NCBI GenBank assembly: GCA_027605045.1
Contig: JAQFWX010000003.1
Span: 2,418,001-2,482,000, forward strand
Source: Phallus indusiatus
Lineage: Eukaryota; Basidiomycota; Agaricomycetes; Phallales; Phallaceae
Length of the DNA stretch: 64,000 bases
Reading direction: 5' to 3'
The notes beneath the pieces are model-generated. The model did no database searches. It was given only the letters and a program-made list of their open reading frames with translations, and was not told the origin of the DNA. Positions 8,700 to 57,545 of the stretch are shown here, in pieces (the first letter of the stretch is position 1; each line of letters starts with the position of its first letter). A program made the position numbers and the translations under genes.

Positions 8700-11600
8700 C
8701 TAACAATACGCAGTACGCTTGACGCGACTTTCCCCATAAAATACCCCTCTATATGCACACCCCAGTTCACGAATAGTATTCATGATTTGGCGAGTAGCTT
8801 TGACCACATGTATCTGAACGCTTTTCTCGTCCAATCGGCTACGGAGTGGAAGACTTGCCGCTGTGTACATATTATCTCTTAGCATGCAGTCTGATGATAA
8901 TAAACCATTGGGATGAAATACCTGATTCAGACCAGGCACCTGTGCACGCTCTTCATTGTCATGATCGTTGTCCAGCATTGCACCTGAGGGCAGAGATGGT
9001 TCCTCGGACTGACCTATGATTTGTCCAAACACGGATAAAGACGCCTGCAACCGACGATTAAAGTCTTCTCTTTGTTTGTGATGACGGAAATGGAAGGACG
9101 GGACAATCGAGTTGAGCTGTTCTCGATCTTTCATGGCAATAAACATCCCATCCAACTGTTCTCTGTCAATTTTCGATTTCCCAAGGAGGAAAAATTGTTT
9201 TGGATCCTGTCCGAACCACACAATCAGTTCCCATAGTCGGACGAGTACGGACGAGTTGTAAAAATGAGTGAACAGAGGCATCTCCACAGACTTGAGGAGA
9301 TTCATTAAGAGTGGGTATATGACCTTGCCCTCTTCGCTCGGATCGTAACAACTCCCCAAGTTTCGAAGACAGGTTGATAAGTTGGACGCGGCTTCGGGGT
9401 CATTCGAGATGATTGTGGATAAATGGTGGCGGTTCTGTGACAGGAGCAAGACTGTAAAAATGGGAGATGTACGTTTTGATAAGTCTTCGTCGAGATCTCG
9501 TGAACACCATTGATATATGAGAGAGAGCTCGTCATAATCCGTACAAGGAAATAAGGCAGCCTCTTTGGCCCTAATCCAGCCCAGGCACCGTGCTGCCAGG
9601 TATCTGGTGTAATCCGTCATAGACTCGGACCAGAATGAGTCCACGCAGAGAATCTCTTTGAAGAAAGTGAAACGGTATTCGAGTATCTCAGGTACCGTGG
9701 AGTAATCATAGTACCACGAAAAGCTGCGAAACAGATGTTCCAATGACTTCTGTCTCTCTTCTTTGTTGGTAATAAACGGTTGGTCGGAGGTAAATCGGCG
9801 GTAGACGGTGATAAGGAGACGATAGTGTGTTGCATAGGATTTGGTTTCTGAGGAAAAGTCAGGTTTGCCGAGTTTGAAGAAATCAAAGAGGTATTTAAGT
9901 TTCCACCATCCCAACTCGTAACTACCGAAGGATACTAACCCTGCGCTATCTACGAGTTCACGAGTGGGATCAAATCCATAACGGAAGAGATTCGAACCCA
10001 ACCCCTGAAACTTGAGTATATGCGCAGCCATTCTCTCATCCTGATCTGATGACATCTGTTTTAGGAGGCAACACCACATGGCTAGCGGGAGCTTGACGGA
10101 ATCACCACCGGTGACTAAACTGTCAAGGGATAGTGCTTTGGGTCCAGAGTATCTACGCTGAAAAAAAATATAGAAATCCTCCATTGGAAAGCGAAGATAG
10201 GTTTTACACTCTCCTTCCTCCAGCTCACTTTCGGCCACATGATCATTGAGTAGACGCCAGTGATAACCGTCTCTACTCAAGAGATCCAGACAAAGTCCAT
10301 AACGTAAATCCTGGACATTTGTCTCGCTGACCTCAAGAGTACGAGAGAGTGCGCCGCTAGCCTTTTCGAAGTGTTCAGCGAGAGTTGGGTGGACAGCTAC
10401 AGATCGAGCAATAATCCGATGGACGCTCCTATCAGCCGAAGCCGTGTAAAGCCATTTGACCGCCTGGGAATCGAGAAAAGTCGCATTTGAGACAGCTCGT
10501 TTTATATTCTCTTCTCTCCACTTTGTGAATTTAGGGAAATCGGAAGAAACTATTTCAACTCGACGTTCTCCAATCCTGTTACCACTCAGCTCCGACTCAG
10601 AGGAGATGCAACGACGCCGGAAGATGCCCGGGGTATAGTCGACGAGATGCCGAATCGTCCGCTGAGCTTTGAGTTTCACTTTTTCCCAAATAATCCGCAA
10701 GATCGTGCTAGCCCAACGAAGAATTTCTCGCAGAACGAAAAAAAGAATTCCAGCATAAATCGTCAACGAGGTTGTGTACGGGCATTCTGGATACCGGATG
10801 GGTAATATCACCGAGATAAAATATAGAGTAAAAGTGATTCCCGTAATCGCGACAATTGTCCAGGCGATATGAGCATCCAGTGGAAACAGTAGTATCATAA
10901 TCCCCGTGAGGAACAGACCGACAGCGAGATGAAGGAGGATAGGGAGGAGGTCGACAATCGCTGCGACCTTCCACTGTTCGAAACCGTTGAACCGTAATTG
11001 CCTCGCCCTCACTTTTTCATTTGGTGTTCCGGAAAACGAAGCCACGTAATAATACAACCATTGTTTAGCCAGAACAGCAAACAGCGCTGTAGATAGCGTA
11101 ATCGCCAGACTGGTGAACCATAGACCGTTCACCAAAGATGCGTTTGTGGATGGTGTAAACGGTGAACTAGGGGTTATTGTTGAGGAGGGTACATTGCTTA
11201 TAGGTAGCCCACTGAACTGTGCCCTGAGTATTTGGACCGTTTCGAATTGTAATGACGCGGTAACTTGTGTGTTATCTTGCTGAAGGCTTGTGGAAGCCTG
11301 CGAAATGAAAGTTGTTATAACGCCAGAAAAGAGACCAGCCTGACATGAGAGATAAGTCTTGAAAGGCATAATAACAAACAAACTTCTGCCTACAAAAACT
11401 AGGAGAACATCAACTGTCTCTTTCCATCCTTCTACTCTCTCGCGATCAAATGCCTCGGCTTCGTCAAGGTAAGTCAACCAAATCCGAGCGTTAGCCGCTG
11501 TCTCTTTCCCGAATTCATCTCGTGGATATTTTTGTTCGTAGACATATCGATTATTTGCTTGTGTGGCGAGATGTTAAAAGTGCACAGATGACAACGAGTT

Positions 11601-18590: not shown

Positions 18591-21353
18591 ATGTCTCAGC
18601 GACCTTCAAGCGATCCTAGATTTCACCAACAAGGCCGTCCTCGGGCAGGACAGGGTCACTCACAAGGACAACAACAAGCCACGCACTGGCAGCCACCACC
18701 GCAACAACGTCAGCATTTACAAGTACCGCAGTCGACAGAGGTTCAAGGAATGCCTCAATTCAGAGTCAACGTTCAACACCCAGACGAGGTTCCGGCACTT
18801 GGAAGTCAAGAGCAAGGGATGCACGAATTTCCTGCTGTTGTACAGGGAAGCGGTGAACTGATTACTGTTGAACGCAAAATCCCTCAAGCAGAACGCGACA
18901 AAGACTCCGAGATAATATCGATTTTAAACCTAGCTCTCACTCCACAAAACGCTCATTATTTTCTTGCGTCAATCGTTGAAAGCGCCAAGGATGCGCTGAA
19001 CCAAGATTATAGTGATCTCCCTAAAGCACGCGGTTTGTTAAACAAATATCCCGGAATATATCGTTTCTTAGATGCCGATTGGAAAAATCACAACTTTAGC
19101 AACACCCGTCGTTTAGGTATACATATATTTCATAGCCCGAATCATAACAACATCTGCTAACTAAAAGTCCTCAGCGGTGTTGCAGAAGATTGACGCCCAC
19201 ACAATAGCATTGGCAACACTCCAATCTCGTCACAATCCAGTCTATCCTCTGCTTCTCCTCAAAGTGTCGGCCTTGAATCAATGGAAAGCAAATGACATTC
19301 AACTCAACAACTGTATCATGTATTCTCGCGAAATTGACATCGCCAATTCAAGGATTCCCGCTCTAGCGGCCTTACACCAGTTTCTAAATGATCTACCTAC
19401 CCGTCGACCATATTCTGTGATTGTTCACGCCGATGCTTTTTCTTCTCCCAAATCACTTATTTATTGTTTTTCAAACAGAATCGCGACATGACTGGGGAAT
19501 TTCAATTAGCCAGGAATCGTTATCAAAATCAATTTGACAGCGTATTCGTCTACACATCAGATCCGGTCGAACACGATCAACGGGAATACTTGTCGTTTTT
19601 TGTTCTTAATCGGACTTTTCTCACTGATTCCATTTCGGCGGATCAAGATGCTTCCAATTTCAAAGCTGCTATCTTTTGCCATTTCTTTGTACACACACCT
19701 TTTCTTTATATCCGGAATTCTCGCTTGAATTATAAACAGTATGTTTCATTAATTCTGTTATCATTTGTCAATTATCTGAATGTCTCTTAGAGATCAATCG
19801 TGGAATTTTCCTATTTTCTTGAAGAGCGTGGAGGGCGAGGATATTACCGTCAAGTATACACCGAAAAGCGACTGGTCTGTGATGGACAAGAGAATTTTAT
19901 GTCCGCTTGTTATATCGGAGGTTGTTTCGCAGAAAAACGAAGAGGATAAGCAACGGATGCTCATGCAAGCCATCGCGGCTGTTCGTATCGGGCAACATTT
20001 CACCGATCCAGAGGTCGAGTTCCAGAAGTGGTTCTTCATGGTCGCGATTTACCTCACTGCAGAACTTAAGGCACAACGATATATTCTGGTTTCCGAAGGT
20101 GGTTCAGATCCAAAGGTAAAGTGGCAATCAATTTAGCATTTAACGTGTAGTCATGAATAGTCAACACCTTTTTTCTTCATAGGTCCACATTGTCTTGAAG
20201 ACTTTTAATTTGAAGAACAACCGCGAAGCGAATCAGTTTTTCCTAGAGATGCTCAACATCAGAGACAAGGCTGTTCGCATGTCCGAGAATTTCAGAATAG
20301 AAGACGAACTTGAAAGAACGTTACTCTCACTGGCTGAGGATGCCAAGAATCTCAAATCTCTCCATTCAAAGGACGGACGGGCTAGTAGAGGAAACAGCTC
20401 TGAGGATGGCGGACAAAACTACAATTTTAATTCATCGAACAACAATGCAATCACTGGCGCGCGCAACAGAGGTTTCGACGAAGGATACGGACACGAGGAT
20501 GGTGTATTCCAAGCGCCCGAACTTCGAAATGAATTAGACAAACTGGGATATGAGATTTTATATACCTCTTATTTCGTAATATCTATCTATCTCTCAACTT
20601 GACTATAGAACTAATCTCAGTTTACATTCGTAGAATCCTAATCTCGCTGTTGTGCAGCCCAAGAACAATCCGGATACGAAACACTACGTGAAATTCATCC
20701 CGGAATACTCGAAAGAACTGCAGATAATCACATACCTAAATAAGCTGAAACCGCCTTCAAGTTATATCATTCGGCCGATTGGATCTTCCACATTCCGGGG
20801 CGGTTCATTGATGGCCATGCTTGGAGCGGGAAGATGGATGAAGAATATCGAGAACTTGGCCATTCATTTACCGGATCTGGTTCTACAATTATTAAACGGT
20901 GTTCAATTTCTTCACAACAACCTCGTTGCGCATTTAGACTTGAAACCCGAAAATCTTCTCGCCTCCACAACGGATCCAAGCAATCCGAAGCTGACGATTA
21001 TTGACTTCAGCTGCGCTGTGCGCGTCGCGAGTCCCTCTACTCTTATAACCGGCGTGCTGGGTACGGATGGATATATGGCTCCTGAAATTGGGTCGGGTCC
21101 GTATAATCCGTTCAAAGCAGATTTGTGGAGTTTCGGGGTGGTGCTTAAGCAATTATGCGAGGCGGCTGGATCTGAGTTTCCTCAGCGGTCTCTGATACTA
21201 ATGATTGCCAGTCAATTAACGCGGCGGAATCCTGATCTTAGGCCTAATTTGTCAGAAATCCTGCAGTGGACTGTTGAGACCACTGGTGGAGGCGATGTGC
21301 ACGAACTTCCGTATGTGTTATGTGTTTTATTCATGATTTTGAGACTTTTCTAA
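18591..21353 (+). CDS. Large protein kinase-like protein with putative nuclease-like N-terminal domain
   Basis: Exons start at 18591, 19175, about 19483, 19791, 20183 and about 20634; all joins keep frame. The N-terminus is Gln-rich. A middle domain carries YSREIDIANSRIPAL, a DKRILCPLVISEVVSQ segment and KQRMLMQAIAAVRIG, which looks like a restriction-endonuclease-like (E-x-x-S/Q-K type) fold; this is an inference. A short linker leads to a kinase domain: HYVKFIPEYSKELQIITYL, the catalytic loop HLDLKPENLL in place of HRD, IIDFSCAV in place of DFG, then GYMAPE and ADLWSFGVV. The HRD Arg and DFG Gly are replaced. Fungal effector-like (Crinkler-type) proteins combine such nuclease and kinase modules. 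The 3' end could contain one more intron near HELP. Confidence 0.75.
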
Positions 21354-41439: not shown

Positions 41440-42357
41440 AGTGCACTCAATGAATAAAGGCTTGATGGTGATGATAATGGCTACACGTACAGACTTAAAT
41501 ATATATACGTTTCGTTGAAATGCAATTCCATCTCAAGGAACTCGGAATCTTTTGGAACGTGTAATCATAAGGATGATGCCGTACCATGACGTTTCCAATA
41601 TACCAGTCAATAGGCTGCCTATGAGTTGTTAGCCTATCAAGCCATTGACTAAATGATACCGGCTCCCACCTATAATAGTTTTACGCCGAGGCTGAGGCTT
41701 TTGGGAAGCCAATCAAGTTCAGATGATTCAAATATCATTACACGATTGGTGCACCGGGCATCATTTAGAGTATGGGGATTGGGGAATCGAGTATGTAGAC
41801 GAATGAAAATCATCCGGAAATTGGTATACAAGGATGGTTAATTTTTGAGGGAAACGAATTTGAAATTTGTTAGCAACAAGCATTATATGTAGCTCATTGA
41901 CACCCTCCAGCGCTTGTACATAACTAAAGTGCCTTCATTAAGCGACGCAGCGTTTTACTCCTTTTGAGTGTTTCCAATTTATTTCCAATAAGAAAAATAA
42001 GACCCGTCGCGCCATACAGTCTACAGAGGTGAAATTATTGTACGCCTAGACTAATTTTCCATAAACGTACGGTCAACACCACAGCGAACACATCCAACCG
42101 TACGCCTGCGGTATAGATAAAAGGTGATTTTAACTCTCTGGGATCGTGCGCACTGCGTAACCACTGCGTACTAGACACAAGCTAGTAGCTACCGCCGTGC
42201 AGCGTGGGCGACGACTTGGCGACGACGGTCGTAGCAAATGCTTAGTAATGGGTGACGTGACGTGACTGTCACACTTTGTCTTGGGTATCGGAAATTTGGA
42301 ATTTGGACCACCGCAGCGGCCAGCCCCAACGCAGCCCGTGGAGTTCTAACTGACAGA
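41440..42357. other. Intergenic, nothing assigned
   Basis: Includes an AT-rich TATA-like tract (tatatata, near 41500) upstream of the hydrolase on the minus strand. It ends at the transposon target duplication gacaga (42352-42357). Confidence 0.6.
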
Positions 42358-42478
42358 TACGGCGGCCCAAACGCGCCAGGTCAAAATTTCAATGATTTTT
42401 TATTTTTGATTTTGTGATCGGTTATTTGCGATGCCCGGAAGTGCCCGGGTCTACGTTTAGCGTTGTAGACTTAGCAGT
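42358..42478 (+). repeat. Left terminal inverted repeat
   Basis: Pairs with 49003-49124 in reverse. It contains a cccggaagtgcccggg semi-palindrome near its inner third. Confidence 0.9.
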
Positions 42479-42681
42479 TTGAATAAAAAAATAAATGTTG
42501 GTTCAGTTGGATTGTCAATATTTGAGAGCAGTTGGACTTATAGGTGACGATTTTACCTTATGTGAAAAGGGAAATTTATATCTAATGTGAAAAGTCGATT
42601 CTTGGATTCACTATTTTTTAGAGCCGGAAAATCTATAGCTGGATATGTAAAAATATGAACGTCTGTTATTATAAGATCTTG

Positions 42682-42776
42682 TGGTTTAGTGGGATGCATG
42701 GAGTGGTGTTTGTCATGTGTGGTGATTTTTGTCAGACCCCTGGTTCGAATCTTGTTCATGTGTGACAAACTTTTTG
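42682..42776 (+). other. tRNA-like Pol III promoter boxes (SINE-like relic)
   Basis: TGGTTTAGTGG (42682-42692) fits a tRNA A box, and GGTTCGAATC (42742-42751) fits a B box, 60 nt apart, with a T-run ending near 42775. I could not fold a cloverleaf or acceptor stem, so it is not a functional tRNA. A tRNA-derived SINE head is one reading. Confidence 0.35.
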
Positions 42777-43064
42777 TCCGCAAATGGGCGCGCACCTCTA
42801 CTTTTTAGGCATAGAGAAATCATATTGCATGTATGTAATTCTATTCTATGAACTTCCTTTATTTAGGAACAAGATCGGCAAATTTAAAAGCAGCACAAAT
42901 TTTGGAACACTGATGTTTCTTCACCCAAAATAATATACCCGCTGCTTGAAATTATGTGGGAAATATCTAACAGTTGGAGCCATACTTTCTTCATCTTCAC
43001 GTGAAATCTCACGCTGACTGTAATAGTATAATTAATATACAGCCTTAAGAAATAAATAATTCAC

Positions 43065-46000
43065 TCACTCGTGTGTTATTGCTGCAATAATTCTTGCGCA
43101 GTCAGCGCTTGTTCTAATATCTAGACGACTTGAGTTTAAGTTGATGTGCAATAAAAACCAGCGACTCACAAGCCCATGATGTATGAACAAGTTGATTATT
43201 ATGTGTTTCATGCACAAAATGAGAGAAGGCTTCGAGCGTCTCGTTGATTTGTATATTTTCTGGCTCTTTACCAAAATCTGCATAAAAGACTTGCGAAAAA
43301 GCTGATACTGGAGCACAGAGCCATTCCATAGTCTGTCCAGTTTCAGAGGTTTTAATCCGGACCAGTCTATAATCAAAGTTAAGGCCTATACAAGTTCAGT
43401 ACTAGCCGTTGCAAGGAATTAACAACTTACTCGCAATATCAATATTTTTAGACTCGGCGGCTGTTTTAAACTCATTGTATAATGAGTGTAAAGTATCAAA
43501 ACGACCGAGTTCGAATATTATTGATGTACCCTCCGGAGATAATGCAATATGCGACGTATATGCATCCCCGGCACCATTCTCCAATAATTTTGCCTAGTAA
43601 AGTAAACATTTAGCGAAAGAAATATATGAAGAAACCCTCTTACTTTCCAAAATTTCGAACGGTTCATGTTGTACAGTTCTCCTTCGTCAATGGATATCTC
43701 AAGACTCCCAGTTACTTCTTCCCCCCTTTTAGGAATTATTTCGCCTTCAACAGGTTGACCCTCGTCATCGGTTCGCTGCCCCCACATTGTAATCTCACAT
43801 TGGTAAGACTCTATTTCAGATTGTTTGCCAGCATCTCCATCATCTGACGAGTCGCCTTCCGAAGATATGACTGTTCCCCGACGAAGTCTCTTGCTAGATA
43901 AGGAAGTGACGGTGGAAGGAGGATGATCAATGTTGGTGCTGGCTTTACTAGCACGAGTAGACGTGAACGATTCTCTCAAACGCTTGCTACTTCGTTTGGT
44001 GCTGAGATCGACAAGTTCCAGGCTTCTGCAGAGGGAATTACACTTATGCTGCATCTTAAATTCCTCAATTCCCTTCTTGCCATGATCTCCAAGACCGGAT
44101 TTCCCCTCAACGCTGCGTTTTTGATTAAATTTGATGAGAGATGAAGTAAAATAAGATAACATACGTATGCATCATTAAATCAAACAACGTCAATAAATCT
44201 GACATACGAAAACCATCGCGAAATTGAGGTGCCAAGATACCTGTGATACAAGAGTGTTCAAATGTGCGGTGAATATATGCGTCTAAAATTGCTATACCTT
44301 GTATGTCTGTTAATACTAAACGTTCCTCTGTATGCACCAATGAAAAATGCGCAAACGCATCCATAGTTCTGCCTGGGATTGAATCATTATGTCCTGCCAC
44401 CGTTGTGCCAGAGAATTTGACGACGTCTTGCACAGTTAACATTGGCGCCATCAAATATGACCATCCAGATTGTGCACCCTCCTTCACTATAGCGATCCAA
44501 CTTTCAGAGAAAGTAAAATCTTAAACTGATTTAGTGAGTCGCATATTTGTAGCTATATGATACGTACTCTCAACAGGAATTTCGCGTCGTTTCGCATACT
44601 GCAGGAACTTCTTGCCAAGATCAGTAGCAATAACGTGCCGTGAAAGTTCATTCTCAAGCTGACGCTTATTCTCTCCTATAGAAACTTCCTTTTTTTCCGA
44701 GGTCATAAAAGCATTTTGCTGCAAATATTTTGTCCCCAAGCGTAGCCTGGTATTTATTTAACAAACATGGGCAAAGACAAAAAATTATCTGACTTACGCG
44801 ATACATTTCCTTAGTGGCCCCTGAACCTTCACTTTCCACGCCAATGTGAAGTGTTAAGGTTGTTGGTGCGATAATGGCACCCATCTTGTTATCAGATCCC
44901 AAGACTATATCCAGCCGCTCAACTACTATTCTGTCCGAATGCACCGGTTGGGTGACATAAACTGTAGTGGTATATTTCGAGGAAAGATCTAATAATTAAA
45001 GGTCAGTGGAATAGTGTTACGAGAACGAAAGTCTTAAATACCATTGAACTGTGTGATATCAGACTCAGTTGATCTTCCACCACGACTTGTCCTCTGTCCC
45101 CGAACAATTTCTTTAGCTTCTTTACGTCGTTCCTGTAATTCAATGCTTTGCTCATGAGAATATGTAACTACTGCACCGCAATGCAATGTCGGGTGACTCT
45201 TTCTAAACTCAAATCGTGTAGAGAATCTATCTCTATTAACAGGCTCCATAATATTAGACCAAAGTCTCCCCAAAGATCCCGTCGTCCATCCATCGGGGTA
45301 GGATGTAAAAGTGGCACCCTTCACATTGCAAACTATTATTTTATCCCTGTGGTATATAAGTAAATTACGAAAACGACGACCTTTGTAGTAACTCACTCAT
45401 CAATATTAATGTTATGACGACTTTGTAATTCACGCTTGGCAAGCCCAGCAAGCGTCGCAACAATTTCCTTCCAAGGTTTGTCTGTAGAATAGGGGATTGG
45501 GCAGGTGACGACGATTAGCGTTTCAGCTTTGTTTACTAAATGAACTCGAATGCGATCGAGCTAAGAAGAGATAAGTACTTGATATATATAAGATAGAAGT
45601 TGAAAACTCACCGCCACAGTCATCTGGGATGGTCTTTTAGGATTGGAATGGGTCAACGTCGATGCTGACAGCCTTTCCGGTGGCTTTTGCTGTCCTGCAA
45701 GTTTCGCAGCAGACTGGGATGCACGCGGGGGATATGCGTTGTGTGCAGCTGAGATAATTTCTTGGGAACGTTGTTTCTCCTATTAAACGGTCAGTGCAAT
45801 CGATGTCAATGATTATAAACCCACCTCTGGATCGACATAGGCGTCAGGACTAATTAAATCTATGAAGCGTTGAGAGTCTGGTAGATCTTCACGTGGATTC
45901 GCGGGTTCTTTCATAACGTTCTCAACATGTTGTATTAACCCCGCTGCTGAGAAATAAAATATCATGAGTGTTCATCAAAAATCATATTATAAACTGATAT

Positions 46001-46323
46001 ACCGGAGCGAGACTGACTTGAGGCCACCGGGTCGCGACGTGCTACGCTGCTAGCTGTAGATTCCACCACTAGTCAAAATTTTCAGCGCATAAAATATTTG
46101 AAGCTTACAAGAACATACCATAACCTTTCTGAATACAATGGCCACAATGGGCAGTGTTCAGACGCGGAAACAACCTGCCACATTGTCTGCATTGGTTTCC
46201 TTGGCCCTTTCCACCAGCATCGAGGTCTTTGCATATGCCGCAAATGTCCCCGAAAAGGTGAGGAAAAGAAGTCCCGCAGGATGGGCAGACTGTGCTGGTA
46301 GGTGTTAAAGATGGAGCGGACAT
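43065..46323 (-). CDS. Alpha-kinase with zinc-ribbon-like N-terminus, transposon-borne
   Basis: Multi-exon minus-strand gene. The N-terminal ~75 residues hold four CxxC knuckles (CPSCGT, CGICKD, CRQCGR, CGHCIQ), enough for two zinc sites. A linker and a domain around WTTGSLGRLWSNI follow. The alpha-kinase domain then shows REIPVES, SGWSYLMAPML, DAFAHFSLVHTEERLVLTDIQ, ILAPQFRDGF, LFDLMMHT, SGLGDHGKKGIEEF and the zinc-binding HKCNSLCRSLEL, which closes the fold. About 110 Ser-rich residues lead to a second alpha-kinase-like segment (FDYRLVRIKTSETGQTMEWL, FADFG-like, EAFSHFVHETHNNQLVH) that stops early, lacking the DIQG and HxCNxxC parts. Start ATG at 46321-46323, stop at 43065-43067. Predicted atypical Ser/Thr kinase; target unknown. 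Confidence 0.8.
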
Positions 46324-47347
46324 TTAGAGACGATTTATTTCTGAATTTTTGCCTATTTTAACGTCGCATTTATATACAATTTTGAAAGCAGTTTGCGCAT
46401 TTGAACTTGGCAGAATTTGAGCGCAAAACTTTGGGACTCCAAGTAACAGCTGAACGCTAGGTATTAGGTAAAAAACTTCACGGGTTGAATTTTCTTTCAG
46501 GCTGACGGGAATTCTCCCTGAAGCCTATCTAGGGTAAACTATCAGCATAATAATAATACTGAACACGAGCATTTGCAGAGTGTATCAACGTTGTTGCAAT
46601 GTAGGGTCGAATTTCGTCTGTTGGTTTCTCTCAATGCAAGGTATGTCACCGGACCGGTATTATCTTCATAATGCATACATGAGCCTGCACAAAACGTATG
46701 AAACTTCCAGTAGATTGGTTTTAGTCTTGCGCGTGGACTTTTATCACCGGAAATAATATTTCCTTTATTGGAAGAAATTGTTCCCGGAACTGCTAGCACA
46801 CTGAAAACACTTTACACGAGCCTTTGCAAACGTACTACGGAAGTTCGATTAATTATTCATAACTTACGTGTCAGACTCATCTATTTCTCGCTTCATATTA
46901 TTTGACCCTGTTTCGGACCGGAATTCCCTGAGGAAATTCGTGGGATGGCATGACACTTGAAACACGAGCCAATGAAGAAATGAGCGGAACTTACAATAAT
47001 TAGGTCAAACTCCACGCGTCGACTTTATCACTATTGTTTTCTTACTTATCTCCAGGGTTCGGACCGAAATTCTCTGCTAAAAAAAATTCAGGTTCCCACC
47101 ATGATGTACGTACTATGATTTTGAACACGAGCTATGCAGGGGTTGTTAGTTGAACTCATGTACCAACGCTCTGCCTCGTGCTCAAGCGCGTTTTCCGGTA
47201 TCCCCGTGCCTGATTATTTCTCCGATTTTTATCACCCTTTTTTAAACCTTTACACTCATATTTCCCGAATTTTTAGACCGAAGTCATCACTGGCGCAGTG
47301 GTTTGCGACATTCATTCATTTGGTGACCTGCTCATTATCTTTCTCTC
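46324..47347. promoter_or_regulatory. Shared divergent promoter region inside the transposon
   Basis: Non-coding spacer between the two element genes. It holds degenerate repeats: a word like aacacgagc recurs near 46560, 46815, 46965 and 47125, and cgcgtggactttta / cgcgtcgacttta recur with a following ggac/gaccggaatt word. This suggests an old tandem array with a period of roughly 150-300 bp. Confidence 0.45.
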
Positions 47348-48905
47348 ATGCCTAATCACAATCCCGCTGGGCATAATCAACATTCTGCTGTTCGTAAGTA
47401 CATTACCGTTTAGTTGATGAATAGGTCTTACTGAGGCGAATTACAGTTGCCCATTCGGAACAGTGGGCTCCGATTATTCAACAGTATCTCGATCGAGGTG
47501 TGAAGGTCAAGGATCTATCGTCCAGAATTGAAGAAGAACACCATACTTCTATTAGGTTTTACTTTGCGATTTATGCCTTTGTGTTGAAACTAATTTTTTG
47601 AAGCAAACGTTCTATTCAAAGGATAATGCAGAAGCATCAAGTTCGAAATTCGCATCGACCCCGCCTTTCCATCCCTCAGATGGTCGAAGCAGTTGTCCGG
47701 ATCACTACTGAAGACCCATTGAATGAGTGGGGATACCGCAGAATTCAGGAAGAGCTCAAACTCTACTCAATTCACATTCCAAGGTGCGAAAATATCTTAG
47801 TTTTCATTTTTATTTTGACGCGCATATATCTATGAGTTTGTAGGTCAGTAATCGAGGCTCTTCAAAGAGCTCGGGATCCTGCAGAGGCTCAACGACGTCA
47901 GCGTGGTCGTAGAAAAATAGTACGCAAAGTCTTGTTCAGTGCAGGCCCCAATGAGGAATGGTGTATGGACGGCCATGAGAAACTTCGCGAAGCGATGGGG
48001 ATCGATGTTTGGGGGATATGTGATAAATTTTCACGCTATGAGCTGGGGCTGTGGGCTGTTCCTCATGCTCGTCTTTCCGACGTTCCTGTGGCGTTATTCC
48101 TTCGTCTTGTGAAGGAGAGAGAAGGTAATCTCTACTTATCTCTTTGATACTTAACTCAAATTTCATTTTCCTCAGGTGTTCCGTTCCAGCTGACCGGAGA
48201 TAAAGGATCGGAAAACGGCAAAGTGGGTATATTGCAGACTGTTCTCCGGTATGTCAAACTTAATCTTAATTCGTATTAAAAAGTTAAACTACAGTTTTCA
48301 GAGCATATTTCGCCCCCTCCATACCCGTTGAAACTACTCCACCAGTTCGATATGTGCGAAGCGTGCGCAACATCACACGCGAGAGAGGATGGCGCCCCTT
48401 ATGGGAGAAGGATTTAAAAAACATTTTGGATGCGTGGATTTCAGGTCAAATTCGTGTGGACTACAGAGATGGAAATCCAGTTCATAAGTGCGCTTATTAC
48501 TATCTAGCACGATTAAATTCATCATTATGTTTTTATAGGGCACTCGGCACATGGCTCTGGGCAAAAGTCGTCCAGGCTCGATTGGACCGTGCTAGAGAAC
48601 GTCAGAAAGTTCATCGTATCAGAATCCAGAGAAGAACACTCCTTCCTAGCGGAGGCACTTCTTATGATTTTTATCACTATCCAAGGAGGTTTCGCGGCAC
48701 GAATTTGCTGATCAAAACGGATTCCTCAATCGTTGACGATTTACTTCATAAGTATGGAGGTGATGAACATCTTATATTTGGTGACGAAAATTCTAATGAG
48801 CTATTTAACACTCTATTCGTTGAAGTCGGAAGCCCAAAGCTTACTCTTAGAAATACTTGGGCTATTTGGCGTCGTATGATGAACTTACTGAACGGTAGAA
48901 GCTAG
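47348..48905 (+). CDS. DDE integrase/transposase, IS3-like (rve core)
   Basis: Six exons or so, starting MPNHNPAGHNQHSAVLAHS. An N-terminal helix-turn-helix region (VKVKDLSSRIEEEHHTS then KRSIQRIMQKH) is followed by an IS3 OrfB-type HTH, EWGYRRIQEELKL, and VIEALQRARDPAEAQRR. The catalytic core has the first Asp in WCMDGHEKL, the second in LTGDKGSENGK, and the Glu in NITRERGWRPLW, 43 residues after the second Asp. All three acidic residues are present. The C-terminal ~150 residues include RRFRGTNLLIKTD and a closing WAIWRRMMNLLNG. The frame is unbroken after splicing, so the protein could be active. It would cut and join the TIR ends. The stop lies about 100 bases from the right TIR. Confidence 0.85.
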
Positions 48906-49002
48906 ACCATCAGTGTAACTAGTTTTTTTACTACTTCTCTATTTCGCAGAACTACTCTCAATGTTGGTAATACAACTGATACAACGTTTCTTTATTATTC
49001 TA

Positions 49003-49124
49003 ACTGATAAATCTACAACGCTAAACATAGACCCGGGCACTTCCGGGCATCGCAAATAACCGATCACAAAATCAAAAATAAAAAAATCGTTGAAATTTTG
49101 ACCTGGCGCGTTTGGGCCGCCGTA
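49003..49124 (-). repeat. Right terminal inverted repeat
   Basis: Reverse complement of the left TIR with about five differences. The hexamer gacaga follows directly at 49125-49130. Confidence 0.9.
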
Positions 49125-49316
49125 GACAGATATTCAATAGACACGCGATATCATCGTAATACCAAAGAAGTCTGGAAGCAGAGCTGGAATTTGCATCATG
49201 GTCATGTTTACGATTGTGAAAAGTGGCGTACAGACTGACACTGTATTTATGTGCAGCCCGAGTATATTACACTGACAAATTGCAGTCTTACGCGTCCTGC
49301 ACAAACCTTTTCCATC

Positions 49317-53253: not shown

Positions 53254-54581
53254 AAGAGGTGTGCTCGGGTGAAGTGGAGAAAGACTTCCAAGGAGCTTTT
53301 TAGCCTTGGTTTTCGAGCTGTCATCATTTACCTAAGCTGAACGCCAATCACAACCGCACGTGATCGTGACGTGCCGCTTAATGAACGGGAGTTTACGGTA
53401 CAGTCTAGAACATGACGTCATGAAGCATCTCGTTCCGATTGGGAGAGCTAGACAGAGTTCAGCGTTTGCGCCGTATAGAAACTTTGTTGAACCCCTAAAG
53501 TTGTTTGAATATCAACAATTTCTGCGTTTATATTTCAATGGGCATTAATTGAAATATATTCCGCATCAATAGAACAACAGAGTCGGAGTCGACTACGCGT
53601 GTCGCAGACAACTGGCGGATGGTATTTCCCTTGAATATGTTACGGTTCAAGGAAACTTGGAAGGGTTGTATTATTCGCTGGCTAAGAATTTGACCATAAG
53701 AAACGCTTATTATGCTACCGTTTACCGCTCCACAGTTACCTCCGAAGTCATAGCGTTCGAGCCGACGTTGAAGTCGGAGCCCCGCCGCGGTTGACACAAG
53801 GTTGACCAAGTTCGAATGTGCTCGCTTAAGCCATCTCCTATTTATCTAGGAGATACTTCCTGTCTAAACGGTTCTTTAAAATTGAAGCTGTGGTGTCATC
53901 AGATGACTAGCTCATTTGACATTTAACACGTGCACTCATCAACTACAGCACAGTATCCAATATGTTCTTAAGCCATTGCTTACGAACGAGTCAAGAATGC
54001 AAACTTCAAGATCCATCAATCACAATAATGAAAAAGGGGAGCCTAAAACTGAGCGACAAGCGAAAGATTATTTTTGATAAACAGAAACAAAACAAAAACA
54101 AAACTAACATATTAAAGTTCGTGAAGTTCGTCAATTTGGACTCACATGAAATGTCATGCTGAGGTATCGCGTGTAAAAACGTCGTATGAGATGGTCATTA
54201 AAATACTCGGCAATGTTTCATCAACTATTCATGTGGTCATTGAGACTCCAATCTGAAGCCTACGTGACCCTTTCTTTGCCAACGCACGGATTCATGGTGA
54301 GAAAATGTTTGGAAAATCTCTCCTCTTTCCCTTGAATGTGACGAGGTGACATGTGGTTCGTGACCGCGTGACTGGGCCATCGCGTTAATCCCGCTTTCAG
54401 CACAAACGTAGAAGCTTTAGAGCCATACTTATGAATTGACGAATTCAATCGGAAAGGCGTACAAGAACAGACAAAAATATGGCGTACTGATTGGGTTCAG
54501 GTGGTAATTGAGGCTTGGGCTGAGCTTTATAAAGTGCCACTTCTAGCCAAGTATGTACCACCCTCATTTCACTCCTTCAAA
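53254..54581. other. Intergenic, nothing assigned
   Basis: About 1.3 kb without a supported gene. Holds the divergent promoters of the F-box gene and GH92. Confidence 0.55.
54528..54534 (+). promoter_or_regulatory. TATA box of GH92
   Basis: TATAAAG about 54 nt before the start codon at 54582. Confidence 0.55.
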
Positions 54582-57545
54582 ATGCTGAGGCTGACAGCAA
54601 TCTTTTCAGCTCTGGTTTCATTGAGCGTCACGTACGCAGCATCAATCGGTAGCGGGGCAGACCCATCTCAGTTCGTCAATGCGTTTATAGGCACGCGGAA
54701 TGGAGGGCATGTCTTCGCAGGTGCTACCTTGCCCTACGGCTCTGTCAAGGCCGTCGCGGACAGTCTATCTAACGACAACCAAGCTGGATATGTCAGCGAT
54801 GGCTCAGCTATAAACGGCATCTCTCAGCTGCACGACGACGGAACTGGTGGAGGTGCTTCGCTAGGCAACTTCCCGCTCTTACCTCTTACCACCCAAGACT
54901 GTGCTCTCGTGGACTGCGACTTTGACCCTGATACTCGCGGTATCCAACACGGGAATCCAACGGCAGCACCAGGCTATTGTCAGTTACTATCTCAATCTCT
55001 CTTAGCTTTCAATGTACCTGGTTACTGACCGCTTGTTTGTAGTCAACATCCCTTTGAATAACAACATAACCGCTGAAGTCACTGTCACTCGACACGCTGC
55101 TCTACACCAGTTTACATATCCCCAAGGGACAACTGAGCAGCTCTTACTACTGGACGTTACAACCGACCTCTCACGTAGCTTTCAAGGTGTCGGTCTGGCA
55201 ACAGTAACTACTACCAGCACCGGAACACGTATCACCGGAAGCGGAGAATATCTGCCTTCTTTCGGTGAAGGAAGCTACGAAGTTTTCTTTTGTTTTGACG
55301 GCCCTGCTTTTCAACAAGCTGTCTTTTCAAATGGTGGCTTTGTCCAAGACATTTCAGCGGGTTTCAACACTTCTTTGACGGTAGCTCCTTCTGGTTTCGG
55401 TCTGTCCTTCAAGCCGGAGGCAGATAACGTTCTTAGAGTCCGAATGGGAATATCATGGACAAGCACGGCTAAGGCTTGTGCTTTTGCAGAAGAAGAGATC
55501 CCCGATCTGACCGCTTTCGATTCTATCAAGACCGCAGCACGGTACGAAGATCCTACCTTATGGTATACGTAATAACTGATGCGTCCTTATTAGCAACACA
55601 TGGAACGACGTCTTAGGGACCATATCTGTTGATGCGACCGGTGTAAGCGAGGATGAACAGCAGCTCTTTTGGAGCTCTCTTTACCGCACGCACATCTCTC
55701 CCACCAACATAACCGGCGACAATCCTCTTTGGGTGTCAACTGAGCCATACTACGATAGTTTCTACTGCATATGGTATATACATTGTTCAACTTTAAATAA
55801 CATCTCGATATCTAATTATTCTCCAGGGATTCCTTCCGAGATGTCCATCCTCTCTGGGCCATTGTAGCACCTACGGCTCAAGCCGAAGTGATCCGCGCTC
55901 TCATCGACATCTATAGACATACCGGGTGGCTACCGGACTGTCGAATGTCCCTAGACAAAGGCTTTACTCAAGGAGGTTCAAATGCGGACTCCATCCTGTC
56001 TGACTCCTTCGTCAAGAACATCAAGAATGGCATCGACTGGGAGACTGGATTAGAGGCCGTCATCAAAGATGCGACGATCGAAGGAGACTTCAGTGTTCAG
56101 GGTCGTGGTGGTATCGAGGCGCGTAGAATCCACGGTTATGTACCTGTCAATGATACCTTCGATAATCCTCCAAACGAGGGACCGAACACGAGGTAAACTT
56201 GGAAGGCTACATGTGACCACGTGCTAATGGTTCATTCATTTCTCATCACAGGAGTGCATCTCGTTTACTTGAATATGTGTATAACGACTTCAGCATTGCT
56301 TTGATAGCAAGAGGTTTGGGAAGACAAGATCTATATGACCAATACACCAAAGCTTCTAACGACTGGGTCAACATCTGGAACCCGAATGTGACAAATACTG
56401 GTTTTAGCGGCTTCATACAACCCCGGAACGCGAATGGGTCTTGGTTCATTAATCCGGAATTCGACATTGGGGGCGTCTTCAATCCCACGCATTGCAGTCC
56501 TGTTTTCGGACATGATGATTGCTTCTTGGTACGGCTTGTCTCATCCTATCGTAATAGATGCTTATGTTGCTTTGATTGGTAGTTCGCTACCGGTGGTGAA
56601 TTCTATGAAGCCAGCTCTTGGGAATATAGTTTCTACGTTCCGCATGATATGGCTAGGTTAGTGGGGCTGATGGGCGGACCGGAAACATTCAGGTGACTAA
56701 ATCGTTTTCTTATCCAAGAAAACCATTATACTAATACTTGTGATAGCAATCGTTTGGATACCTTCTTTGCCGCTGGATATCACGTAAGAAAAATTATTAC
56801 CTTTTCTGAGACGATCGTCAGCTCATTCATTTCCAGGACATTGGTAAAGCAAGCACATCTTTTTCAAATTAGTGATACTGAATTGCGTTTGTTTGAACAA
56901 TAGGTGATGAGCCGGGCTTCCGTAAGTACAATTTGAATAAACCGTCATCTTTGCGCTCATTCCTGTACAGTCCCTACATTCTTATATAATTACGTCGGTC
57001 AGCCAGTTAAAACAGTCGATAGGGTCATATCAACTTTGAATCAGTTCTTCAATACATCGTAACTACCTTTCTCGATTAACGTTTACTGCTGTCTATTCTG
57101 ACTATTCATAGCACCAACGGCTTGCCGGGTAATGATGATAGTGGTGCTATGGGCGGTATGTTTATTGTCGAGTTTTTCTCTTCGGTCATATAATCACTAT
57201 TGAACAGCATACGTGGTTTGGACGCATTTGGGCTTCTATCCTGTAGCAGGACAAGACACATACCTACTGTGCCGACCATTCTTCCCTAAAATCACTTTCC
57301 AAAATCAAGCAACTGGAGCTATCGCTACCATCATTTCCAACAACTTCTCGTCGGAGAATATTTATATTCAATCTGCCAAGTTGAACGGGGCCACCTATAC
57401 TAAGAATTGGATTTCGCATGAGTTCTTCCTTAATGGAGGTACTCTTGAGCTTGAAATGGGATCTAGCATGGGTAGTTCTTGGGGCACTGGAGAAGCCAAC
57501 TTGCCTCCTAGTCTGAGCACTGGAGGGTTTAATAACATGAACTAA
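54582..57545 (+). CDS. GH92 alpha-mannosidase, secreted
   Basis: Signal peptide MLRLTAIFSALVSLSVTYA, then DPSQFVNAFIGTRNGGHVFA and LPYGSVKAVADS, the GH92 N-terminal domain. GISQLHDDGTGGGASLGNFP, HAALHQFTYP and LLLDVTTDLSRSFQG follow. The catalytic domain has LYRTHISPTN, EPYYDSFYCIWDSFRDVHPL, HTGWLPDCRMSLDKGFTQGG, ADSILSDSFVKN, GYVPV and the family hallmark GNDDSGAMGAYVVWTHLGFY before PVAGQDTYLL. Around ten introns; one at 56528-56580 restores FATGGEFYEASSWEY. GH92 enzymes are calcium-dependent exo-alpha-mannosidases (often alpha-1,2) trimming N-glycans or mannoproteins. Predicted extracellular. The short exons at about 56750-57110 are the least certain. Confidence 0.93.

Follow-up and report, generated by a model that had tools for sequence, protein, structure and literature searches.

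An IS3EU-like transposon of Phallus indusiatus with an alpha-kinase gene opposite its integrase: passenger or partner?

Protein kinases as standing components of cut-and-paste transposons have been little discussed. A 64,000-nucleotide stretch of the Phallus indusiatus genome (GenBank assembly GCA_027605045.1, contig JAQFWX010000003.1, positions 2,418,001 to 2,482,000), termed here the window, contains a DNA transposon that encodes both a DDE integrase and an alpha-kinase. This raises the question of whether the kinase is a working part of the element, a gene caught by chance, or cargo that serves the mushroom.

The IS3EU/GingerRoot transposons have TA..TA ends, usually 6-bp target-site duplications, and a DDE transposase that lacks an HHCC motif (PMC10045372). 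IS3EU families that bear a TET gene are described from rust fungi and Tuber, with TAYGG..CCRTA ends, 6-bp duplications and terminal inverted repeats (TIRs) longer than 30 bp; in these the TET gene lies between the transposase gene and an alpha-kinase gene, and the latter two are oppositely oriented (Kojima 2025, PMC12730594). TET/JBP genes are described in the same source as passing passively between fungal transposons, across superfamilies. The pairing of a kinase with IS3EU was thus already known, since that source states it for rusts and Tuber. Its remark on gene order is the sole published mention found of an alpha-kinase inside a transposon; earlier ones may exist, Repbase Reports and most subscription papers lying outside the literature covered. 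Elsewhere, the alpha-kinase family is reported to be highly expanded in rusts (PMC4469406), PF02816 appears among the domains compared in a table (PMC5295586), and diversifying selection is listed for 46 proteins of stem rust, one of them an alpha-kinase (PMC4150398); the alpha-kinase passages of these three papers make no mention of transposons. The present analysis adds the genome-wide linkage of kinase and integrase (10 of 11 matches), their co-divergence, a dN/dS of 0.07 in the first kinase domain of the one usable pair, and a second, catalytically empty domain.

The element, its ends and its copies

The element is 6767 bp in length (window positions 42358–49124), begins TACGGCGG and ends CCGCCGTA (Table 1). 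The two TIR arms align over ∼176 bp at ∼90% identity, and the first 120 columns of the alignment hold four substitutions and one 1-nt indel. This agrees with the preliminary description of the locus, which gave TIRs of about 121 bp with about five differences; the flanking repeat that it named, gacaga, likewise lies directly outside both ends. The 600-bp flanks of the window copy each match only themselves in the genome, which left no empty allele to inspect.

Table 1. Features of the transposon and its two genes (window coordinates)
Feature	Position	Strand	Basis
Left target-site duplication, gacaga	42352–42357		immediately outside left end
Left TIR, ∼176 bp, starts TACGGCGGCC	42358–42533	+	arm alignment
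Alpha-kinase gene, 15 exons, ∼913 aa; reading frame broken near 44694 (in the N-lobe of domain 1) and near 42945 (in the final exon)	42859–46323	−	predicted model, copy comparison
Alpha-kinase-like domain 2 (span approximate), other residues in place of catalytic Lys and DxQG	42862–43731	−	profile match, alignment
Kinase domain 1 (span approximate), retains its catalytic residues	44049–44824	−	profile match, alignment
First kinase exon, CxxC pairs, zinc-ribbon-like	46119–46323	−	zf-Tbcl_FmdE match on window ORF
Gap between the two gene starts, presumed shared promoter region	46324–47347		no ORF of at least 100 aa
DDE integrase (transposase) gene, 7 exons, 413 aa, open	47348–48905	+	predicted model; Pfam rva_4 match
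Right TIR, ends GGCCGCCGTA	48950–49124	−	arm alignment
Right target-site duplication, gacaga	49125–49130		immediately outside right end

Two other full copies, C137 and C128, were found in the genome (67.2 Mb in 206 contigs). C137 (L009:1373-8138) is 99.87% identical to the window copy; its flanks were checked and show no target-site duplication, perhaps as a result of recombination or an abnormal insertion. C128 is ∼99% identical to the window copy over most of its length, and its kinase gene is broken up by insertions of 596, 2730 and 306 bp. The left ∼600 bp of C128 are far more divergent from the other copies than the remainder, as might follow from an exchange of this end with another subfamily.

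Four short elements of 744–748 bp have the first 29 bp exactly in common, and their similarity to the full element is confined to the ends. They are flanked by 6-bp duplications at three distinct sites (ggtata, aacgtt and cacatg). The preliminary description had asked whether copies of the TIRs contain the kinase. All three full copies do, with that of C128 broken by its insertions, whereas none of the four short elements contains either the kinase or the integrase. The short elements are presumably mobilized in trans, and since they have the same ends and carry neither gene, an element need not contain the kinase in cis.

The termini TACGG..CCGTA are found in the window copy, C137, C128, the short elements, and the two sister families C130 and C111; those of the more distant C112 element are TATGG..CCATA. 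Duplications of 6 bp flank the window copy, C128 (aaagtg) and C112 (agattg), as opposed to 7 bp in C130 and C111. At C63, the right end is decayed and has tcaggg to either side. The ends common to all three full copies and to the four short elements, together with duplications at separate sites, confirm that the element is real and beyond chance.

Two contig pairs display one insertion with identical flanks: the short element flanked by cacatg is present on two contigs, and the C63 and C120:28k loci form the other pair. The assembly may therefore retain parts of two nuclear haplotypes.

The preliminary description assigned the element to IS3EU by integrase type and target-duplication length. 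The published ends and duplication length fit that assignment, and the element is probably of the IS3EU/GingerRoot kind, a placement based on ends, duplication length and gene layout. With IS3EU/GingerRoot as described (PMC10045372) the element shares the TA..TA ends, the 6-bp duplications and a DDE transposase without HHCC; it differs in the kinase, which goes unmentioned in the passages of that source, and in the 7-bp duplications of two sister families. It resembles the TET-bearing families in ends, 6-bp duplications, TIRs longer than 30 bp, and opposed transposase and alpha-kinase genes, as these are given in PMC12730594. Unlike them, it has no recognized TET/JBP gene between the two genes (Table 1), and its host is a mushroom, as opposed to the rusts and Tuber of that account.

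Three further coding features were noted in the window. DUF6535 (186 bits) is recognized in an open frame of 957 residues at 8700–11573 on the minus strand, and a glycosyl hydrolase family 92 N-terminal domain extends over two open frames, probably two exons, at 54435–55572 on the plus strand. A protein kinase domain of the ordinary eukaryotic type (Pkinase, 76.3 bits), which belongs to a family distinct from alpha-kinase, is at 20634–21353 on the plus strand.

The integrase and the two-domain kinase

Both gene models were predicted from splice signals and from comparison among copies and families. The integrase matches the Pfam rva_4 'Integrase core domain' at 34.0 bits (cut-off 26), and its open 413-aa reading has candidate catalytic residues, picked by motif, at D154 (47968–47970), D214 (48199–48201) and E257 (48381–48383), in keeping with the three acidic residues noted in the preliminary description. 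The start of the protein gives weak helix-turn-helix-like matches, below cut-off. This reading has no Cys before residue 152, so there is no HHCC zinc motif ahead of the catalytic core. As a genome-wide query the rva_4 profile gave zero matches even at the 14 controls, so that its silence elsewhere is uninformative.

The second gene is on the minus strand, opposite the integrase, and one of its exons in the window matches PF02816 at 39.8 bits; the divergent alpha-kinase proposed earlier is upheld. The protein begins with the CxxC exon, followed by a fast-evolving middle part and then domain 1. The zf-Tbcl_FmdE match of the first exon is 23.7 bits on the window ORF against a cut-off of 23.2, and longer readings fall below the cut-off. 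Domain 1, in the C137 reading, matches the alpha-kinase family profile PF02816 at 83.2 bits (cut-off 21.3). The Lys, the DxQ, a second Asp, and the His and Cys of the zinc site are all present in the families of this genome, and presumably have the catalytic and zinc roles that they have in MHCK-A and TRPM7. Across 18 aligned relatives the Lys, the first Asp (of DxQ), the His and the Cys are invariant, and the Gln and second Asp are conserved in at least 90%. Among solved structures, Dictyostelium MHCK-A (3lkm) matches the C130 relative best (E 4.6e-06).

Domain 2 also matches the alpha-kinase profile, at 24.4 bits in C130 and 23.7 bits in C111 (cut-off 21.3). In the alignment of all four families from this genome, the Lys position is occupied by His and the DxQG motif is replaced by SWAY or NWAY, and the zinc-site His and Cys are kept. 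Domain 2 is read, from these alignments, as a conserved alpha-pseudokinase that has lost its catalytic residues. A profile built from the four families and run on 28 kinase relatives found a separate domain 2 in two, both from Clathrus: P0025, which is cut short, and P0026; neither motif is present in either. P0034 and others among the 28 match this profile more weakly, and these matches are presumed to be to the first kinase domain. The C130 domain 2, used as a query against a large protein set, gave nothing at E 0.001. An AlphaFold2 model of P0026 has good confidence for the first kinase domain alone, and its second domain is too poor for use. The protein thus resembles the alpha-kinase family in domain 1, and is unlike members such as MHCK-A in being transposon-encoded, in its zinc-ribbon-like start, and in its second, catalytically empty alpha-kinase domain.

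The element was called near-intact in the preliminary description, which is fair for the element overall and does not hold for its kinase gene, whose frame is interrupted at two places (Table 1). Both sites are uninterrupted in C137 and C128. C137 itself has one interruption in the kinase and one in the integrase. The interruptions in the window and C137 genes may be real or may be assembly errors; the kinase of the window copy is probably broken.

Linkage and co-divergence of the two genes

A genome-wide search for alpha-kinases gave 11 matches, a lower bound; the kinase at C42 was missed by it. Ten of the 11 adjoin an integrase on the opposite strand. The integrase is of the window type at seven (the window locus on C129, C137, C128, C130, C111, C63 and C120:28k) and of a second type, ∼25% identical to the first, at C112, C184 and C144. 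Since C63 and C120:28k have common flanks, nine of ten distinct insertions are probably linked. The remaining match, C120:657k, has no adjoining integrase match. It is 555 bp from a right end that resembles that of C112, with a weak left-end pairing (17/24, no duplication), and may be a decayed element.

Viewed from the integrase, the association is similar. All seven window-type integrase loci have a kinase, that of C111 being split by ∼11 kb. The second type is found at nine places (C112, C42, C122, C184, C144:77k, C144:70k, C177, C1 and C173), of which C144:77k and C144:70k match separate portions of the query and may together represent a single gene that has been split. Neighbourhoods were viewed at five of the nine, C112, C184, C144:77k, C42 and C177; the first four have a kinase, and C177 has a remnant of 39 residues that is 90% identical to the kinase of C144. 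Terminal repeats were sought at C184 and C144 and not found. The C112-type end has 14 matches in the genome, and the two that were inspected belong to the C112 element itself. The place and orientation of the kinase inside the element are the same in both integrase lineages.

Relatives were found in other fungi: 24 of the integrase and 28 of the kinase, all basidiomycete by the names given, the best being from Clathrus columnatus. The Clathrus kinase Clacol_010508 and integrase Clacol_010509 (a partial model) have consecutive tags and are on contigs of the same size, 104,719; for Cyathus striatus, too, one kinase and one integrase are on contigs of equal size, 44,881. Both pairs are apparently neighbours. 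For the other 26 of the 28 kinases, no integrase among those listed is on a contig of equal size. The preliminary description proposed that such elements spread alpha-kinases; for this genome the proposal is well supported, and there are indications of it in two other mushrooms.

Co-divergence was measured by comparing sequence identities in kinase domain 1, taken as far as DxQG, with those in the integrase among seven lineages: the window type (represented by the C137 kinase reading), C130, C111, C63, Clathrus, Cyathus, and C112 (represented by one open stretch). The correlation is r 0.989, and just one of 5040 relabellings of the lineages, the true one, reaches it. With rounded values, r is 0.989 when C112 is omitted (1 of 720 relabellings), 0.956 when Cyathus is omitted as well, these being the two most distant lineages (1 of 120), and 0.979 for the genome's own window-type families alone (1 of 24). 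The copy distributions of kinase and integrase in the genome, which the preliminary description proposed to compare, thus coincide, and their divergences are correlated. The matched identities over lineages indicate that the two genes have travelled together, in contrast to the TET genes, which are described as moving between superfamilies (PMC12730594).

Selection was estimated by a simple counting method from C130 versus C111, the one pair whose silent sites are unsaturated; other pairs have silent distances of at least 1.6 or infinite and were set aside. The dN/dS of the kinase is 0.19 for the whole gene, 0.07 for domain 1 and 0.18 for domain 2. That of the integrase is 0.12, in a comparison where the C111 model has a doubtful stretch. 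In this pair, the ratios show the kinase to be under purifying selection. The passages of PMC12730594 on TET-bearing elements are silent on kinase domains, selection and co-divergence.

Possible roles of the kinase in the element

The alpha-kinase is considered a gene of the element because of its presence in the copies, the related two-gene families, the matched divergence and the purifying selection. Its divergence in step with the transposase gives it the look of a functional component instead of a stowaway. The locus is thus probably a transposon with two genes of its own, in which the kinase acts to the element's benefit.

Some observations count against this reading: the kinase frame of the window copy is broken, that of C128 holds three insertions, C137 is interrupted in each gene and has no duplication, and the short elements carry neither gene. 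An alternative is a host alpha-kinase gene caught by an ancestor of the family that does nothing for the element. The broken kinase frame of the window copy and the existence of short elements without the kinase could be read that way, and TET/JBP genes are described as being handed on passively between fungal transposons (PMC12730594). Such a passenger, however, would hardly be expected to accompany two integrase lineages that are ∼25% identical, and apparently two other mushroom genera as well, to match the integrase in divergence, to be under purifying selection in the one usable pair, or to occur in the identical layout published for rusts and Tuber (PMC12730594). A chance passenger is therefore considered very unlikely.

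Purifying selection alone is silent on who benefits. Fungal alpha-kinases elsewhere have host roles, and selection might act through the mushroom if the kinase served its signalling and the element carried and spread it. Against this, the divergence of the kinase tracks that of the integrase, its position and orientation are fixed within the element in both lineages, and just one of the 11 alpha-kinase matches is without an adjoining integrase, itself possibly a decayed element; cargo that benefits the host is an unlikely explanation. The zinc-ribbon-like N-terminal exon, and the conservation of a domain 2 devoid of catalytic residues, could also suit a DNA-binding or structural accessory protein in the same element, with kinase activity not being what is selected. 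Yet domain 1 is the most constrained part of the protein, with catalytic residues that do not vary among the 18 relatives, which makes this the least probable of the readings.

If the kinase works for the element, perhaps in transposase control, host signalling or timing as the preliminary description suggests, a scheme can be proposed. The integrase would bind the TIRs, excise the element and join it to the target with a 6-bp stagger, or 7 bp in the two sister families. The two genes would be transcribed away from each other out of the middle of the element, and with this head-to-head layout they may be expressed jointly from the 1 kb that separates them. The zinc ribbons might recruit the kinase to DNA or into the transposition complex, where domain 1 would phosphorylate on behalf of the element. 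Domain 2, catalytically empty, might regulate domain 1 or hold the substrate, by analogy with kinase–pseudokinase pairs, which exist in other families. Two kinds of substrate are about equally plausible: the element's own integrase, slightly ahead, and a host protein that is present at the DNA of the element and takes part in silencing or in the signalling of breaks.

Perhaps the fungal IS3EU elements are an ancient two-gene system in which the transposase has, or could have, a kinase–pseudokinase chain as its fixed partner. Under this tentative proposal most basidiomycete alpha-kinase expansions, including those of rusts, would be transposon genes and not host signalling genes. If the kinase is a fixed transposase partner, these elements would offer a ready system for the study of how transposons may use phosphorylation to control their own movement or their hosts. 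They would also provide a simple source for the alpha-kinase expansions of fungi, and the annotation of such genes would be altered accordingly.
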